Assembly: GCA_022827095.1 (NCBI GenBank)
Contig: JAJDTP010000004.1
Coordinates: 124,001-188,000 of the forward strand
Length of the DNA stretch: 64,000 bases
Direction of reading: 5' to 3'
From: Dehalococcoidia bacterium
GTDB taxonomy: Bacteria > Chloroflexota > Dehalococcoidia > Lucifugimonadales > UBA3495
This document shows, piece by piece, positions 49,328 to 57,271 of the stretch; positions within the stretch are counted from its first letter, which is position 1, and each line of letters opens with the position of its first letter. The translations under genes were made by a program, and so were the position numbers. The notes beneath the pieces were generated by a model that was given only the letters and a program-made list of their open reading frames with translations, ran no database searches and was not told the DNA's origin.

Positions 49328-50431
49328 TCAGGCCGGGGATATGAACTTCTGGCACACCACGGCCGCATCGCACATCTCGTTGATGCTGGCGGTCTCCCGG
49401 GTGGTGTGGAAGTCCCGCACGCCGATGCCCACGGGCAAAGCGACGATGCCGTGCTCGTAGAAGACATTGGCGTCGGATCCGCCGCCGGTGGTTTCCAGCG
49501 CGGGGCTCAGCCCGCCGGCGGTGACTGCGTGGGCGATGTCCATCAGGGCGGGGTCGCTCTCCGCTACACGGTAAGCCTGGTACTGGTTCCGGATCTCGAG
49601 GTCGACCTGCGCGCGCGGGTACATCGCCGCCGCTTGATCAAAGGCGCGGCGGAACTCTGCCGTGTAGATCTCCAGCTTGGCCTGATCCCGTGAGCGCAAT
49701 TCGCCGTCCATGAAAGCCTGCTCCGGGATGATGTTCCGCTTCAGACCGCCCTCCAGCACGCCGATGTTGCTGGTGGTCTCGTGGTCAATGCGACCCAGTG
49801 GCAGACGGGTGAGGATGTTGGCGGCGACCAGCAGGGCCGACACGCCGTTTTCCGGCTCCAGGCCGGCGTGGGCGGCAACGCCGGTGATGCGGCACTGCAC
49901 CACGTTCTGGGCCGGCGCGCCGACGCAAATGCGACTCACCGGGCCCTCGCCGTCGAAGACCATGCCATTCTTTGCTTTTACCAGCGAGAAATCCAGGTTG
50001 CGGGCGCCGTTCAATCCGCCTTCTTCCGCCCGGGAGAACACCACCTGCACCGGGCGACCGAGACCCCCGTCCTCCATGGCCGCGGTGAGTCCCTCCAGGA
50101 CTATGGCCAAGCCGGCCTTGCAGTCGCCGCCCAGGATGGTGGAGCCGTCGGAGCGCAACGTGTCGCCATCGGCGTCGAGGGTCGGCTGGATGCCGCGGCC
50201 GGGTTCCACGGTGTCCATGTGGGCGGACAGCATGACGGGGAGTTCGCCGGATCTGCCGTTGTTGCCGGGCAGGGTGGCCACCAGGTTGCCGTAGGCGTCG
50301 TGCTGTATCGACGCGCCGAGGTCGGTGAGCCGCGCGGAGAGGTGGGCGTCGATGACGTCCTCCTCGCCGGTGGGGCTGTCGATCCGGATGAGTTCGATAA
50401 CGGTTCGGACAAGGCGTTCGCGGTCGATCAT
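49328..50431 (-). CDS. M20-family metallopeptidase (PepT-like)
   Basis: This 367-residue di-zinc peptidase has LIRIDSPTGEEDVIDAHLSA at the start, the zinc motif MLSAHMDTVEPG, GGDCKAGLAIVLEGL and the catalytic EEGGLNGARNLDFS. A dimerisation domain occupies the middle and the last zinc His is near the end (GIGVRDFHTTRE). It is closest to the PepT/M20B-like group that cleaves di- or tripeptides or amides. GGAG precedes the ATG. The gene lies 18 bp after the NYN gene, so it may be read through from that operon. Confidence 0.9.
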   Translation of the reverse strand: MIDRERLVRTVIELIRIDSPTGEEDVIDAHLSARLTDLGASIQHDAYGNLVATLPGNNGRSGELPVMLSAHMDTVEPGRGIQPTLDADGDTLRSDGSTILGGDCKAGLAIVLEGLTAAMEDGGLGRPVQVVFSRAEEGGLNGARNLDFSLVKAKNGMVFDGEGPVSRICVGAPAQNVVQCRITGVAAHAGLEPENGVSALLVAANILTRLPLGRIDHETTSNIGVLEGGLKRNIIPEQAFMDGELRSRDQAKLEIYTAEFRRAFDQAAAMYPRAQVDLEIRNQYQAYRVAESDPALMDIAHAVTAGGLSPALETTGGGSDANVFYEHGIVALPVGIGVRDFHTTRETASINEMCDAAVVCQKFISPA

Positions 50432-50449: not shown

Positions 50450-51646
50450 TTAGGCAAGGGACAAGAGGTTGTGGCGCGCGTCGGGGGTCATCTCGTAGCG
50501 CCGTGGTTTTTCCTTGGCGATGGTGACGCCGTGCTGCTCCATGATGGGCCAGAGCTGCCTGGCGAACCAAGTGCCGAACTGGGTCGCGGTGTAGGACGCG
50601 GCCGGATGCTGGGGTCGGCTGCTTTTCAGAGCGTCCTGGGCATCGGAGGCCTTGAAAATGTCGTCGGCAATGCCCTGGGCGACGGCGGCGGCCAGTTGCT
50701 CCGGTGTGGCTTTGTCGCTTTGGTCAGCCGTCGCCGTTGGTTTTCCAACGGTGTCTTTGGCCTCTGGTGTTATCTCATAGGTTCGGGGCGATTTTTCTTT
50801 GGCCATAACTACGCCGCGCCGCTGCATGATAGGCCAGACCTCTTTAAGCAGGAATGTGCCTAACTGCGCCGGGCCGGTGGCAGCAGGATGTGCCGGCCAT
50901 TTATCCTGGAAAATGCCATGAGCGTCGGCGACTTTGAATTTACCAACGGGCAGCCGCCGTATCAATTCATCGGCGATAACATCATTGCTGGCACTGGCGT
51001 CGGCATGAGTAGCCGGCAGGGCGGGCCGGGTCGCCTCGGGCAATGACTTTGGCGTGGGTCTGCTGACCACCGGGGCCGGAGCGGGCACGGTCGGCGTCGG
51101 CAGGGGTGGAGCATCGGCCAAGTCCCACCGAAAGGCGACGGGTATGAACTGCTTGATTTCCGGCGACAGTGCGCCCCCTTCCGGCGGGTGTATCCACAGG
51201 AAGGGCACCGTCTCCGCGTTTGCCTCCCGGGCCAACTCACGGACCTTGACAAACAGGGCGGCGAAATCGCTGTCGTTGCTTACCACGGCAAGGTCGTTGG
51301 CCCTGCCGGTCACCAGATCCGACACGGCATCGGCGGCGATTGCCAGATCCGCGGAGTTCTTGGAATTATTCGAACTGAAATGCTGAACGCCACGCACGCG
51401 GAGGCCCAGCGGCGGGAACGCATCCTCCGCCCACAGCCGCCACAGCTCCGCCTTGTCAGCGCGGACGTAGAGGGAGAGACTGCCCAAGGGTGGACGATCT
51501 CCGGGCCAGTTGGCTACAACCTGCTCGACTACTTGCCGGGCGTGGTCAGCGTCGCGCAGGTTTTCGGTGTCGACGTAAAGGGCGCCGCCGGGAGATGTGG
51601 ACATCTGGGCGGCTTTGGAGCGGGTGAGCATTTTCGGGTCAGGCAT
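50450..51646 (-). CDS. NYN-domain nuclease with two C-terminal repeats
   Basis: This 398-residue protein has an N-terminal NYN (PIN-like) domain at ~20-165. Its acidic sites are GALYVDTENLRDADH, NSADLAIAADAVSDL and LAVVSNDSDFAALF, so the metal site looks complete. A Pro/Ala-rich linker covers ~180-225. Two repeated ~75-residue modules follow: one ends LKEVWPIMQRRGVVMAKEK, the other ARQLWPIMEQHGVTIAKEK, each followed by a YEMTP-like strand. These look like winged-helix or OST-HTH-type RNA-binding modules, by inference. It is the last gene of the retropepsin-SWIM operon, 25 bp after the previous stop. NYN proteins usually process or degrade RNA. Confidence 0.82.
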   Translation of the reverse strand: MPDPKMLTRSKAAQMSTSPGGALYVDTENLRDADHARQVVEQVVANWPGDRPPLGSLSLYVRADKAELWRLWAEDAFPPLGLRVRGVQHFSSNNSKNSADLAIAADAVSDLVTGRANDLAVVSNDSDFAALFVKVRELAREANAETVPFLWIHPPEGGALSPEIKQFIPVAFRWDLADAPPLPTPTVPAPAPVVSRPTPKSLPEATRPALPATHADASASNDVIADELIRRLPVGKFKVADAHGIFQDKWPAHPAATGPAQLGTFLLKEVWPIMQRRGVVMAKEKSPRTYEITPEAKDTVGKPTATADQSDKATPEQLAAAVAQGIADDIFKASDAQDALKSSRPQHPAASYTATQFGTWFARQLWPIMEQHGVTIAKEKPRRYEMTPDARHNLLSLA

Positions 51647-51671
51647 AATCTACGGCGGTGGATCGTTAACG

Positions 51672-52079
51672 TCACATTGTAATCCTAGCCGGCACTAACC
51701 GTTTGTGTACGGGGTCGGCAGCGACCCCAAAGCGCTCCAGGGTCATTGCGCCAATAAGAATGATTTCAGGGTCATGTCCGAAAGCAACATGAACTGTCCT
51801 GGCCCTACCGTTCATTTCAATCAGCGCAAGTCCAATGCTCATCTCTATAGTAGAACCGTCGGCAAGACTGAACAACTCGCTTTCGTCTCGCGCTATATCC
51901 ATTTCGTCCAGAATCGGCGCCGGGATGATGGAGTAAAGTGCGCCGGTATCCACCATGCCAACCAGCGGAAGCGCCCGACGCCCGTCGGCGCTGCCGATAG
52001 TGAAATCGACGTTGAACGTTCCCATTGCTTCGTCCCCAATAGTGGAGCCTGGCAGTATTATTCCCGTTTTTGTTGTCAT
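51672..52079 (-). CDS. Retropepsin-like clan AA aspartic protease (copy 1)
   Basis: This 135-residue single-domain protease carries VGMVDTGALYSIIPAPILDE, where DTG is the catalytic motif. The second half is SLADGSTIEMSIGLALIEM and EIILIGAMTLERFGVAADPV, where ILIGA...L is the conserved hydrophobic-hydrophobic-Gly element. As in retroviral proteases, two chains are needed for an active site. The ATG at 52079 has AGGGGA upstream and overlaps the SWIM gene stop by 4 bp. The target is unknown. Confidence 0.85.
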   Translation of the reverse strand: MTTKTGIILPGSTIGDEAMGTFNVDFTIGSADGRRALPLVGMVDTGALYSIIPAPILDEMDIARDESELFSLADGSTIEMSIGLALIEMNGRARTVHVAFGHDPEIILIGAMTLERFGVAADPVHKRLVPARITM

Positions 52080-52498
52080 GTCGGTTCCCCTGAGCAAAAG
52101 GCATCCACCATATCCAGAAGGGACGGGGCAGCCTCAACCAACGCGCGCAACTCGTCGGCGTCCAGTCCGTCCAGCAGGTCGGCTACCGGGGGCTTGACTG
52201 CAATGGGGGTTGGGCTGTTGTCGTCGCTGACGGTCAGCAGTGCAGCGACCACATGCTTGCAATAGCCGCCCCAGTCATAAGGGCAGGTGCAGGCTGCGGT
52301 GAAGTCTGCCTCGCTGAAGGTGATGCCGACCCGGTACGGATCCCACTCGCTGCCCTGCACGGCGGCGAACAGCTGGTTGCCGCGTATAGTGGCGCTCTCG
52401 ACCGTGCCCGCGTGGTAATAGTCCACGCCGCGGTCGTAGGACTGCCCTGTGACTTGGGCGCGGATGTCGTCTGCGGTGATGTGGGGAAGGTTGGTCAT
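52076..52498 (-). CDS. SWIM zinc-finger protein
   Basis: This 140-residue protein has the SWIM motif TAACTCPYDWGGYCKHVVAA (CxC-x7-CxH), which binds zinc and often nucleic acid. Before it is a conserved strand-rich part with SYDRGVDYYHAGTVESATIR, as in many bacterial SWIM proteins. SWIM domains are commonly fused to or next to SNF2 helicases, but none is present here. Both ends overlap retropepsin genes by 4 bp, so all three are translated together. Confidence 0.88.
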   Translation of the reverse strand: MTNLPHITADDIRAQVTGQSYDRGVDYYHAGTVESATIRGNQLFAAVQGSEWDPYRVGITFSEADFTAACTCPYDWGGYCKHVVAALLTVSDDNSPTPIAVKPPVADLLDGLDADELRALVEAAPSLLDMVDAFCSGEPT

Positions 52499-52872
52499 GG
52501 CGCATCCTCATTGTCCAGCAGGACGATACGGTCCACCGGGAGCAGGCGTTCATATACCAAGTCGACGGCCAGTCGGAGCTCCACTAGAGGCTCGGCACCA
52601 ATCAGTATTTTGCGGCTGCCGCTGCCGAACACCACCGTGACCGTTTCGGACCGCCCTGCCAGCTCCATCAGGGCATAGCCGATGTGGCGTTCCTGCAACG
52701 ACCCATCGGCCAAGCTGAACAGAAGCAATTCGCCGCGCGCGACTCCCAGTTCATCCAATACGGCCTCAGGTATGACGGTGAACGAGGCGCCAGTATCAAC
52801 CGTTCCGTTCAGAGTGGAAGAACGAGCATTGTCGGGTCCGTACAGAGCAAATGGTATGGTGAGGCTATACAT
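52495..52872 (-). CDS. Retropepsin-like clan AA aspartic protease (copy 2)
   Basis: This 125-residue protein has NGTVDTGASFTVIPEAVLDE with an intact DTG motif, then LLLFSLADGSLQERHIGYAL, and RKILIGAEPLVELRLAVDLV as the second conserved element. It is paralogous to copy 1. The ATG at 52872 begins MYSLTIPFALYGPDN; upstream in-frame sequence belongs to the neighbouring gene in another frame. Its stop overlaps the SWIM gene start by 4 bp. Confidence 0.85.
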   Translation of the reverse strand: MYSLTIPFALYGPDNARSSTLNGTVDTGASFTVIPEAVLDELGVARGELLLFSLADGSLQERHIGYALMELAGRSETVTVVFGSGSRKILIGAEPLVELRLAVDLVYERLLPVDRIVLLDNEDAP

Positions 52873-52885
52873 AGTGCGGCAGCAT

Positions 52886-53305
52886 CTACAGGTGCAGTAC
52901 CACGTTGATAAACTGTTTGTTTTCCGGGTCAGCGGCGAGGGCCAGCCCGACGAGGGCGCTTTGGCCGATGACGATTTGCCCGCTGTCTTCGCCAAAGAGA
53001 ATTACCTGCCGGCCTGATTTGCCATTCAGCGTCACCTGGGGCCGAGCGCTGGATAGGTCAACCAGGGTGCCGCAGGGTAATCGGCAACGGCGCTTGCCTG
53101 TTGGCGCAATACCCAACGCTCGCAGGACGTCGGCGGGAACGATGGAGTATTGTACGCGCGTATCAACCACGCCAGTGATGGTTTGGCAGGCCTTCTCATC
53201 GTCGCTGTACAGCGTGATCGGAGCACCAAAGACCGCCGACGGGTCACCGCCGATAACAGATCCGGCCGCAATATCCAGCTTGACATTGAGCAGTGTCATC
53301 GACAC
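52886..53305 (-). CDS. Degenerate retropepsin-like protein
   Basis: This 139-residue protein aligns with the two retropepsins downstream: TGVVDTRVQYSIVPADVLRA, then RCRLPCGTLVDLSSARPQVT and QIVIGQSALVGLALAADPEN. The catalytic DTG is changed to DTR, while the rest of the fold is kept. It is probably inactive alone, but might pair with one of the DTG proteins as a regulatory or substrate-binding half. It starts 15 bp after the DUF1501 stop and ends 13 bp before copy 2. Confidence 0.8.
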   Translation of the reverse strand: MSMTLLNVKLDIAAGSVIGGDPSAVFGAPITLYSDDEKACQTITGVVDTRVQYSIVPADVLRALGIAPTGKRRCRLPCGTLVDLSSARPQVTLNGKSGRQVILFGEDSGQIVIGQSALVGLALAADPENKQFINVVLHL

Positions 53306-53320
53306 CGTATCATCCTCCCC

Positions 53321-54448
53321 TTACACGAACCCCGGCTGCTCGAAGCTGCCGCCCACCACAGGCTGCGCGTCCAGGCCGAGCCACTGCTCCACCAGCGTGC
53401 CGTAGACGCCGCGGAAGTCGGTGTTGAAGGCCAGGTCGCCTTCGACCAAGTCGGATTCGGCCAGGGACGGATACTCACTGTACATGCCGCCGCGCACCGG
53501 GTCGCCGATGGCGAAGGCCACGCCTCCGCTGCCGTGATCGGTGCCGCTGCCGTTGTCACGGACGCGGCGGCCGAACTCGGTGAAGACGAACATGAGCACG
53601 TTGTCGGCGGTGTCGTGCTCGCGCAGGTCGGCGTAGAAATCGCTGACCGCGCGGCTGAGGTCGGACAGCAGCTTGGGCTGGACGTCGGTCTCGCTGGCGT
53701 GGGTGTCGTAGCCGCCCTGCTGGGTGTAGAACACGCGGGTGCCCAGGTCGGCGGTCAGCACCTTGGCGATGCCCTGCAGGTTCCTGGCGATGCCGGTTTC
53801 CGCGTACTCGATGGTCGAGGTGTACATATCCGGCGCGGCCTTGAGGATGTCCGCGCCTTTCAGGGCGTCCAGGCCGGTCTGTCCGAGGTAGTCCATCGTT
53901 GCGCCGAGGCCCACGGTGGGCGAGTACATGCGGGCGAAGATGTCCAGGGCCTGCGACCGCTCCGGCTCGTTGACGATGCCCGTGAGCACGCCGTAGGTCT
54001 CCAGCACTGCAACGGAGGCTACCGGGACTCCGGTGAGCGCCATGGCGCGGGGCAGGCCGCGGCCGAAGTTGACGCCGGTAAGGACGTTCTCGGCATTGGG
54101 ATCGAGGTCGCGGATGACGCGACCCAGCCATCCCTCGGTGCCGACCTTTTCCGGCTCGCAGGTGTGCCAGATGTCCATGCTTCGGAAGTGCGAGCGGTTG
54201 GGTGTCGGATAGCCGATGCCGTTGATGACGGCGACCTTGCCGGCGTCATACAGGCTTTTGATCTCTGGTATCGCAGGATTAAAGCCGAATTGGTCGTCGA
54301 TATGGAGGACCTGATCGGCGGGGATGCCCACGGTGGGCCGGTTGTCGTGGTAGCGGCCGTCGGCGTAGGGAATGACCGTGTTCATGTAGTCGTTGCCGCC
54401 GGTCAGCTGGATGACGACGAGGATGGGGTCTTTGGTGGTGGAGGTCAT
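53321..54448 (-). CDS. DUF1501 domain-containing protein (second copy)
   Basis: This 375-residue protein is paralogous to the one at 9444-10571 and has the same length. Shared blocks include LVVIQLTGGNDYMNTVIPYA, NGIGYPTPNRSHFRSMDIWH, GGYDTHASETDVQPKLLSDL and FTEFGRRVRDNGSGTDHGSG. As with the first copy there is no Tat signal. The ATG at 54448 has GGAG upstream. It heads the operon with the retropepsin, SWIM and NYN genes. A decayed fragment of its 5' end lies at 55245-55555 beyond the Uma2 gene. Confidence 0.9.
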   Translation of the reverse strand: MTSTTKDPILVVIQLTGGNDYMNTVIPYADGRYHDNRPTVGIPADQVLHIDDQFGFNPAIPEIKSLYDAGKVAVINGIGYPTPNRSHFRSMDIWHTCEPEKVGTEGWLGRVIRDLDPNAENVLTGVNFGRGLPRAMALTGVPVASVAVLETYGVLTGIVNEPERSQALDIFARMYSPTVGLGATMDYLGQTGLDALKGADILKAAPDMYTSTIEYAETGIARNLQGIAKVLTADLGTRVFYTQQGGYDTHASETDVQPKLLSDLSRAVSDFYADLREHDTADNVLMFVFTEFGRRVRDNGSGTDHGSGGVAFAIGDPVRGGMYSEYPSLAESDLVEGDLAFNTDFRGVYGTLVEQWLGLDAQPVVGGSFEQPGFV

Positions 54449-54491
54449 GGCAGCGTGGCTCCGTGGGACGAATGTATGCAGGGTTGGTTGG

Positions 54492-54507
54492 TGGGCGTAG
54501 TTTAGCA
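54492..54507. repeat. Upstream sequence duplicated with the DUF1501 fragment, copy 1
   Basis: The 16-base sequence tgggcgtagtttagca lies upstream of the intact DUF1501 gene. It recurs at 55598-55613, upstream of the decayed copy, so the duplication included the promoter region. Confidence 0.8.
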
Positions 54508-54576
54508 CAGGGCACGCGCGAGGCAGGTGGTAAAATGGGCCGTCTCAGTGACTACGAGTGCATTCTGAGGTCTGCG

Positions 54577-55244: not shown

Positions 55245-55555
55245 CACATTCTTTTCCGGCTTGCAGGTGTGCCAGATGTCCATGCTGCGGAAGGAAGTGG
55301 GAGCGTTGGGCGTGGGGTACCGATTCCTTAGATGACGACCACCTTGCCAGCTTCGTGCAGCGTATTGCATTCGGGCAATGCCGAATTGAACGTGAAATGG
55401 TCGTCAAAGGGCAACACCTGCTCGGCGAAGATGTCCACGGTAGGCCGGTTGTCGTGGTAGCGGACGTCAGCGTAGGTAATGACGGTGTTCATATAGTCAT
55501 TGTCGCCGGTCAGCTGGATGACGACGAGGATCGGGTCTTCGGTGGTGGAGGTCAT
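55245..55555 (-). pseudogene. Decayed 5' fragment of a DUF1501 gene
   Basis: From 55555 it reads MTSTTEDPILVVIQLTGDND, YMNTVITYAD, then HEAGKVVVI and a stop where the parent has GKVAVINGIGY. After the stop, frame-shifted sequence still encodes FRSMDIWHTCKPEK, matching FRSMDIWHTCEPEK of the intact copy. Homology ends about 12 bp from the Uma2 stop. Roughly the first 110 codons of the parent gene are represented. Confidence 0.9.
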
Positions 55556-55846: not shown

Positions 55847-57271
55847 TTACAATGATCTGTTATTCCGGTTGTGGTAATGGTTCCAGAATGTCTCTGTAAG
55901 TAAACGATTATTCGTTTGCAGCCGAACTACCGAGCCAGTTACCTCTTCTTTGAGTTGAATATATCCTTCTCTTGTCGGATGTCTCTCAAGCCGATATTGC
56001 ATCTGGTTTTCGAATAAACGATAAATCAACGTTATGACTTCATCGACTTTGTCAGTAACAATTGCCCCCACAGCAACGCCAGTCTCAAATTCTATCAGCC
56101 TGCTCAACGGATGAACATCGCGATAAAATCGGCTTTTCTGTGTTTGATCACAATAGAAAATGACAGGCTTGCCAAGTGTAAGTGCCATAGCCGCCTCAGC
56201 ATCTTTACCGTAGCTTTCTCTTTCTCCGGCGCAGTAGACAAGTATTTTCGCACATTTAACCATCAAACACTCGATCAAACCTTTGTCTTGATGGCCTTCG
56301 GCTGCACTCAACGTGGGATCGAAATACCGCAGGTTTAAATGTGATAACCTGTCGTTGCCAAACACTTGCGAGCACAAGTTGGCCATCTCACGGAAATTTT
56401 GCCGCGTCCTCATGCTAGTTGCGACATAAACGTCTAAATCATTCACCATGGAAAGATAATAATCAGTGTTACTCAGTGCAGCCTCCCGAGTAGCGAAAAA
56501 TGTGTTCAGAACTGCGCCAAATTTGGTAGCGAAATCCTGGTCAGATGTAATTGTGTCCTCTAGGACGTCATTCATCGAGAACTCGAATTCGCCTTGTCTA
56601 TCAGAATAGTCGCTATCCAGAGATTCGGTTATCAACTGACGGAACGTGATGTTGCCTCCACCCTGGCGAATGTGGCGTTGATACGCTTGTTCAAGCGCGA
56701 CCCGGATTTCGCTTTCAGAATCTGAGCTGTCGCCAAAAGATTTACAAGCCATTTCAGAAATGAGATATCGGTCGTCTTGGGGGACCGCATGCAAAGGCAA
56801 GACGCTACCGCGGGACTTAATGGCGTCGGTGCGAAACCGCTTCTCTCTGAAGAAATCGCATAGTTCGTCTCTTGTCAGCGTACGAAGCGTACGAAAGGCT
56901 GTCCGAACGTTGCCGAAGTACAAAAGGCCGTCGGTGTACAACCGATACAATCCCCACTCCAGATGGGGTAGTGAAGTGATTCCGTCTGTATTGCCGATAA
57001 CTTCTCTGTTGAAGTTAGGCAAATCGCGAATCGTGTACGGATGATTCGGCGGAACTTCAAGCCAATAATATCGAAAAAAACCCTCGGACACTGGAGCTTC
57101 GCGTCCGAAAACTAGCAACTGATTGAGTTGTGCGTGGCTCAAATGGTCATCATGGAGCCGATCCAGTCGATCAAACACCTTTTTGTCCGTGTTGTCCGTA
57201 AGCCAACTGCCAATTCCTCCGCCGGCAACGTGGAAAATCTTGAATTGTTCCAAAATCGCTGATTTTGACAT
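55847..57271 (-). CDS. Unknown protein with NDT/SLOG-like C-terminal domain
   Basis: This 474-residue protein has no family I can name as a whole. Residues ~1-275 are mixed helix and strand without a known motif. Residues ~280-410 look like a nucleoside 2-deoxyribosyltransferase/SLOG-type domain: DLDVYVATSMRTRQNFREMA, KGLIECLMVKCAKILVYCAG and GKDAEAAMALTLGKPVIFY. The Glu in DAEAA sits where deoxyribosyltransferases have their nucleophile. Such folds, related to TIR, often act on nucleotides or NAD in defence systems; that is an inference. The gene is clearly AT-richer than its neighbours and was probably acquired. Confidence 0.75.
   Translation of the reverse strand: MSKSAILEQFKIFHVAGGGIGSWLTDNTDKKVFDRLDRLHDDHLSHAQLNQLLVFGREAPVSEGFFRYYWLEVPPNHPYTIRDLPNFNREVIGNTDGITSLPHLEWGLYRLYTDGLLYFGNVRTAFRTLRTLTRDELCDFFREKRFRTDAIKSRGSVLPLHAVPQDDRYLISEMACKSFGDSSDSESEIRVALEQAYQRHIRQGGGNITFRQLITESLDSDYSDRQGEFEFSMNDVLEDTITSDQDFATKFGAVLNTFFATREAALSNTDYYLSMVNDLDVYVATSMRTRQNFREMANLCSQVFGNDRLSHLNLRYFDPTLSAAEGHQDKGLIECLMVKCAKILVYCAGERESYGKDAEAAMALTLGKPVIFYCDQTQKSRFYRDVHPLSRLIEFETGVAVGAIVTDKVDEVITLIYRLFENQMQYRLERHPTREGYIQLKEEVTGSVVRLQTNNRLLTETFWNHYHNRNNRSL

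Follow-up and report, generated by a model that had tools for sequence, protein, structure and literature searches.

A cluster of five short genes in a Dehalococcoidia bacterium (assembly GCA_022827095.1) raises the question of whether retrovirus-type proteases, a zinc-finger protein and a nuclease, encoded one behind the other, work as a single system or have collected at one place. The genes occupy positions 50450 to 53305 of the window, i.e., the whole 64,000-nucleotide stretch of contig JAJDTP010000004.1 (positions 124,001 to 188,000) that was analysed here. They encode two retropepsins, a degenerate relative of these, a short SWIM protein and an NYN nuclease (A to E below). From their composition and close spacing, the initial annotation proposed a protease-controlled RNA-cleaving system. 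Comparison with related genomes leads us to favour genus-specific accretion of genes at one inherited site, to which we assign a probability of about 0.6. The evidence is better explained by genes having collected in one place than by a functioning nuclease system under protease control; joint function within the genus is possible. The genes and their immediate neighbours, in order of transcription, are as follows.

53321..54508, minus strand: DUF1501 gene (PF07394, 76.2 bits)
52886..53305, minus strand: A, degenerate retropepsin-like protein, 139 amino acids (aa), GTG start, DTR for DTG
52495..52872, minus strand: B, retropepsin, 125 aa, DTG and ILIG motifs, above the PF13650 cut-off
52076..52498, minus strand: C, short SWIM zinc-finger protein, 140 aa, above the PF04434 cut-off
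51672..52079, minus strand: D, retropepsin, 135 aa, DTG and ILIG motifs, below the Pfam cut-offs
50450..51646, minus strand: E, NYN nuclease, 398 aa, two C-terminal repeats modelled as winged helices (PF01936, 34.4 bits)
49328..50431, minus strand: M20 peptidase gene (PF01546/PF07687)

Gene order, strand and motifs in the initial annotation agree with these coordinates and with the profile matches. The same is true of the spacing, which consists of a 13-bp gap between A and B, 4-bp overlaps between B and C and between C and D, and a 25-bp gap between D and E. The gene run therefore stands; its proposed boundaries as a five-gene operon do not. The run continues on the same strand at both ends, to the DUF1501 gene 15 bp before A and to the M20 peptidase gene 18 bp after E, and the five genes thus do not form an operon set apart from their neighbours. 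The short gaps make a shared transcript probable, produced by read-through that starts upstream.

Recurrence of the locus within and outside the genus

The genus was represented by 14 species, which are SAR202/Dehalococcoidia relatives available as metagenome bins (denoted here by G numbers); they are probably mostly sponge-associated Chloroflexota, the sponge origin being read from the bin names. A single-copy NYN orthologue lies downstream of a DUF1501 gene in all 14. Retropepsins (0-3 copies) stand between the two in 12 species, all but G008 and G010. Half of the sample (7/14: G000, G001, G003, G004, G005, G007 and G011) has the short SWIM gene (0-1 copy). A further retropepsin between SWIM and NYN, represented by D, occurs only in the window and in G004, and the M20 peptidase gene neighbours the locus in 5 of the 14 genus members. 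Other genes also enter the interval: two unknown genes separate SWIM from NYN in G003, and a thiamine pyrophosphate (TPP) enzyme is encoded between DUF1501 and the retropepsin in G012. The NYN gene is intact in G008 and frame-disrupted in G010, with neither retropepsin nor SWIM at the locus in either species.

On the DUF1501 tree, the retropepsins and M20 require at least one change each and SWIM at least three. Because so few changes of retropepsin and SWIM are needed, the locus appears to be largely one inherited site. The retropepsins of the locus fall into five clades: A has an orthologue in G004 and a related copy, with NAQ in place of the motif, in G006; B has an orthologue at the locus only in G004; and D belongs to a clade of six genus members at the locus. 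Independent recruitment of different retropepsin clades beside NYN was considered and dropped, since a single clade for all of the locus retropepsins is not rejected by the approximately unbiased (AU) test (p-AU 0.284).

Outside the genus the association does not hold. Of 92 genera of the order that were sampled, 17 have NYN relatives, among them the genus of the window. The flanks of NYN at 25 loci in other genera contain neither a retropepsin nor a SWIM gene over about 4 kb, as far as the contig extends. A second, broader set of 35 loci, which shares some members with the first and includes gammaproteobacterial bins, yielded a single weak exception, a retropepsin-like open reading frame about 2 kb away (L143). 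The conserved co-occurrence of retropepsin, SWIM and NYN genes on which the initial annotation was to be judged thus holds inside one genus (12/14 and 7/14) and fails beyond it (0/25 loci); scattered homologues without linkage, which were to speak against a system, are found outside the genus and not inside.

Since orthologues were found for each of the five genes, and the pairwise ratio of nonsynonymous to synonymous substitutions (dN/dS) is below 1 for each, all five are under purifying selection, and are real and apparently functional genes rather than chance open reading frames. Among the five, the ratio increases from D (0.07-0.13) through SWIM (0.16-0.28), NYN (0.19-0.28) and B (0.31) to A (0.47); the flanking DUF1501 and M20 genes give 0.03-0.13. 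Between G000 and G004, dS is 0.18 for D, 0.33 for SWIM, about 0.4 for the flanks, 0.78 for NYN and about 1.1 for A and B, the high values being near saturation. These gene-to-gene differences suggest exchange at the locus.

The retropepsin family

The retropepsins of the locus are members of a large family. Profile searches (E up to 1) gave 15 retropepsin matches, scattered over the window's genome, and up to 26 in one genome of the lineage. Away from this locus, 32 retropepsin genes were sampled by heuristic gene calls. The next gene upstream has the same orientation in 27 of them, and its distance to the start of the domain is within 150 bp in 23. These upstream neighbours are unrelated and include an Obg-like GTPase and respiratory-complex-like genes (identified by reading). 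Because retropepsins typically follow closely behind unrelated genes, short spacing is usual for the family and is weak evidence of partnership. The strict co-translation that the initial annotation had taken to indicate partnership loses its force accordingly.

Profile and motif evidence differs among the three proteins. B passes the cut-off of PF13650 (26.0 versus 24.3 bits), D remains below those of PF13975 and PF13650, and A has no match in the Pfam scan. All three match NCBIfam TIGR03698 (clan AA aspartic protease) under its cut-off of 57.35 (23.9 bits for A), A and D align along their length with B and with paralogues, and their lengths of 125-139 aa fit the single-domain size of the family. 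The catalytic D-T/S-G motif is DTG in B and D and is missing in A (DTR), which also has LPCG where most paralogues have LADG. The second motif, hydrophobic-hydrophobic-Gly, reads ILIG in B and D and IVIG in A, and D carries an N-terminal LPGSTIG segment. By alignment, A is classed as a family relative, and by its motif it is predicted not to be an active protease.

Such degenerate copies are widespread: 59 of 72 distinct retropepsins carry DTG and 13 do not, some of the latter possibly being assembly errors in metagenome bins. Those away from the locus include copies without an active neighbour within the stretches examined, and G006 has a single retropepsin between DUF1501 and NYN, a degenerate one. 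A general role of degenerate copies as partners of active neighbours was rejected on the basis of these lone copies, and the suggestion that one inactive and two active chains form heterodimers is not specifically supported. Tandem arrays are also seen elsewhere in the family (tandem examples: L175, G164), with four retropepsins in a row at G164:C1:2862258-2864004, as is a neighbouring pair of DTR and DTA retropepsins.

The NYN protein and the possibility of a toxin or defence system

E passes the cut-off of PF01936 (24.2 bits), and its residues D26, N29, D100, D125 and D127 are invariant. Its structure model (predicted local distance difference test score, pLDDT, 85.9) matches the fold of MARF1 NYN (Z 12.8, root-mean-square deviation, rmsd, 3.6, 144 residues) and of 2qip (Z 12.2). 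The two C-terminal repeats described in the initial annotation are borne out, and the whole-protein model has the same elements in each. The first, modelled with both repeats in its alignment, is predicted to be a winged helix (pLDDT 90.7); its best fold match is a transcription regulator (Z 8.5, rmsd 3.0 over 78 residues), and all fold matches are generic winged helices, with which an OST-HTH identity would be compatible. OST-HTH (PF12872) has no sequence match in E or its 34 relatives, and weakly matches another NYN protein of the window's genome, which contains one close and one distant NYN gene. Most NYN relatives outside the genus have a single C-terminal repeat.

Of the relatives 42-48% identical to the window's NYN protein at loci L119-L124, five are in bins labelled as Gammaproteobacteria and one in a bin labelled as Chloroflexota, which suggests transfer between members of the same communities. 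A phage origin was also considered and set aside, as the PHROGs scan gave just one weak match for NYN, of unknown function.

The intact catalytic residues of E, its sporadic occurrence in the order (17/92 genera) and its faster evolution relative to the flanking genes would be in keeping with NYN being the toxin of a toxin-antitoxin or anti-phage defence system, held in check or set free by the retropepsin or SWIM proteins. We consider this very unlikely. The NYN gene is not kept only with an adjacent candidate antitoxin, being intact in G008 with neither retropepsin nor SWIM at the locus and present in other genera with neither nearby; consequently neither protein would be an obligate antitoxin encoded beside NYN, and from G008 they seem unneeded to restrain it. 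These same cases count against the proposed protease-controlled RNA-cleaving system. PADLOC matches just the SWIM domain of larger proteins and no known defence protein, the neighbouring DUF1501 and M20 genes are not defence families, and the ftsY-, lepB- and pth-like genes nearby are housekeeping-like (recognised by eye only).

The SWIM protein and a possible functional module

C passes the cut-off of PF04434 (27.7 versus 19.6 bits). It contains CTCPYDWGGYCKH and an additional C-terminal segment, and the CxC...CxH zinc ligands are invariant across seven orthologues. These orthologues were found only at this locus, in the seven genus members listed above; the short SWIM gene does not occur elsewhere in the family, and the window's genome has one copy. 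The only full-length relative found in the class (L187:236-685; G415:C218:254-646) is 37% identical over the aligned part and directly precedes Cas2 and Cas4 genes (see also L189), which are followed by genes for a Cas10-like HD protein and RAMP-like proteins (both recognised by eye). Stand-alone SWIM proteins elsewhere may be CRISPR accessories.

Several observations weigh against simple accretion. Retropepsins are kept at the locus in 12 of the 14 species even though the NYN, SWIM and retropepsin genes diverge faster than their flanks, and SWIM always lies after a retropepsin and before NYN. NYN places G009 beside G000 and G004, and G009 also has a retropepsin of the shared clade D. Its position on the DUF1501 tree is different, which would fit a joint move of NYN and the retropepsin. 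In G006 (L063 4758-5417), a SWIM-family C-terminal segment (SWIM profile positions 93-137, E 0.0002-0.0004) precedes the degenerate NAQ retropepsin in one open frame, with two NYN genes following. No other observation hints as strongly at interaction as this apparent natural fusion, which was seen once, in a metagenome bin.

The persistence of retropepsins in 12/14 species, the constant position of SWIM and its confinement to the locus, the fusion, and the purifying selection on the degenerate copy A (dN/dS 0.47) speak for a functional genus-specific module as a rival account. In such a module SWIM and the dead retropepsin would be adaptors that join NYN and the active retropepsins on nucleic acid, and the proteases would trim or turn over NYN under stress. 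We regard this as a tentative alternative, clearly less likely than accretion: NYN stands alone in G008, in G010 (frame-disrupted there) and outside the genus, more than one origin of the linkage is not proven (AU test), and the fusion may be a deletion of neighbouring genes. A more specific form, a protease/pseudoprotease switch in which the SWIM adaptor joins active and conserved dead retropepsins controlling a winged-helix NYN ribonuclease, is improbable.

Probable accretion of genes at one inherited site

Under the preferred reading, accretion at one inherited site, the starting arrangement would have been the single-copy NYN-type nuclease gene after DUF1501, as seen in all 14 species. The trees suggest that one or more members of the large stand-alone retropepsin family then came between DUF1501 and NYN, and were multiplied or replaced there and lost in one lineage. 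The short SWIM gene would have been gained or lost at least three times. From what is known of the families, NYN is predicted to cut RNA in a metal-dependent manner and to bind nucleic acid through its winged-helix repeats, B and D would be peptidases active as dimers, A would have kept the fold and lost catalysis under weaker constraint, and the zinc finger of C may bind nucleic acid or a protein. An obligate joint mechanism would not be required.

Genes upstream of the locus

At 55328-55555 the N-terminal part of DUF1501 is present a second time in truncated form, in pieces about 70-78% identical, and a Uma2 gene is located between it and the full DUF1501 gene. The truncated copy appears to be a relic of duplication or insertion. 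Further upstream, 55847-57271 encodes a 474-aa protein with no family above cut-off and weak SLOG cluster 4 similarity; this gene lies in the window's stretch of lowest guanine-plus-cytosine content (0.53) and was possibly acquired recently.

Comparison with known systems

Our literature search on SWIM with NYN or an aspartyl protease, and on retropepsins with toxin-antitoxin systems or Chloroflexi, returned nothing relevant. If a functional module were true, it would represent a bacterial ribonuclease governed by retrovirus-type proteases, of which no description was found in the literature searched. As it stands, the lineage carries an expanded stand-alone retropepsin family, often close behind unrelated genes and often degenerate.

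The bacterial retropepsin-like proteases of clan AA (TIGR03698, PF13975/PF13650) include RimB and RloA of Pseudomonas, and RloA is a homodimer with its active site at the interface (PMC12239564). In contrast to these, the present locus has no RimK-like ATP-grasp partner, and the family consists of about 15 scattered copies, sometimes tandem, often degenerate and mostly below the curated cut-offs. C resembles SWIM zinc-finger proteins (PF04434) in having CxC...CxH in the usual N-terminal context of the domain, and differs from them in being a short stand-alone protein of 140 aa with its own conserved C-terminal segment. Bacterial NYN/LK-nuclease proteins are often fused to OST-HTH, and members have been described as standalone, with no conserved neighbourhoods to RNA-processing genes (PMC2848206). 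E shares with these proteins (PDB 2qip; MARF1 NYN, 5yaa) an N-terminal PIN-like nuclease, in which acidic residues are invariant, and one or two winged-helix domains behind it; unlike them, its repeats are not recognised by the OST-HTH model, and the NYN gene of this genus has conserved neighbours.
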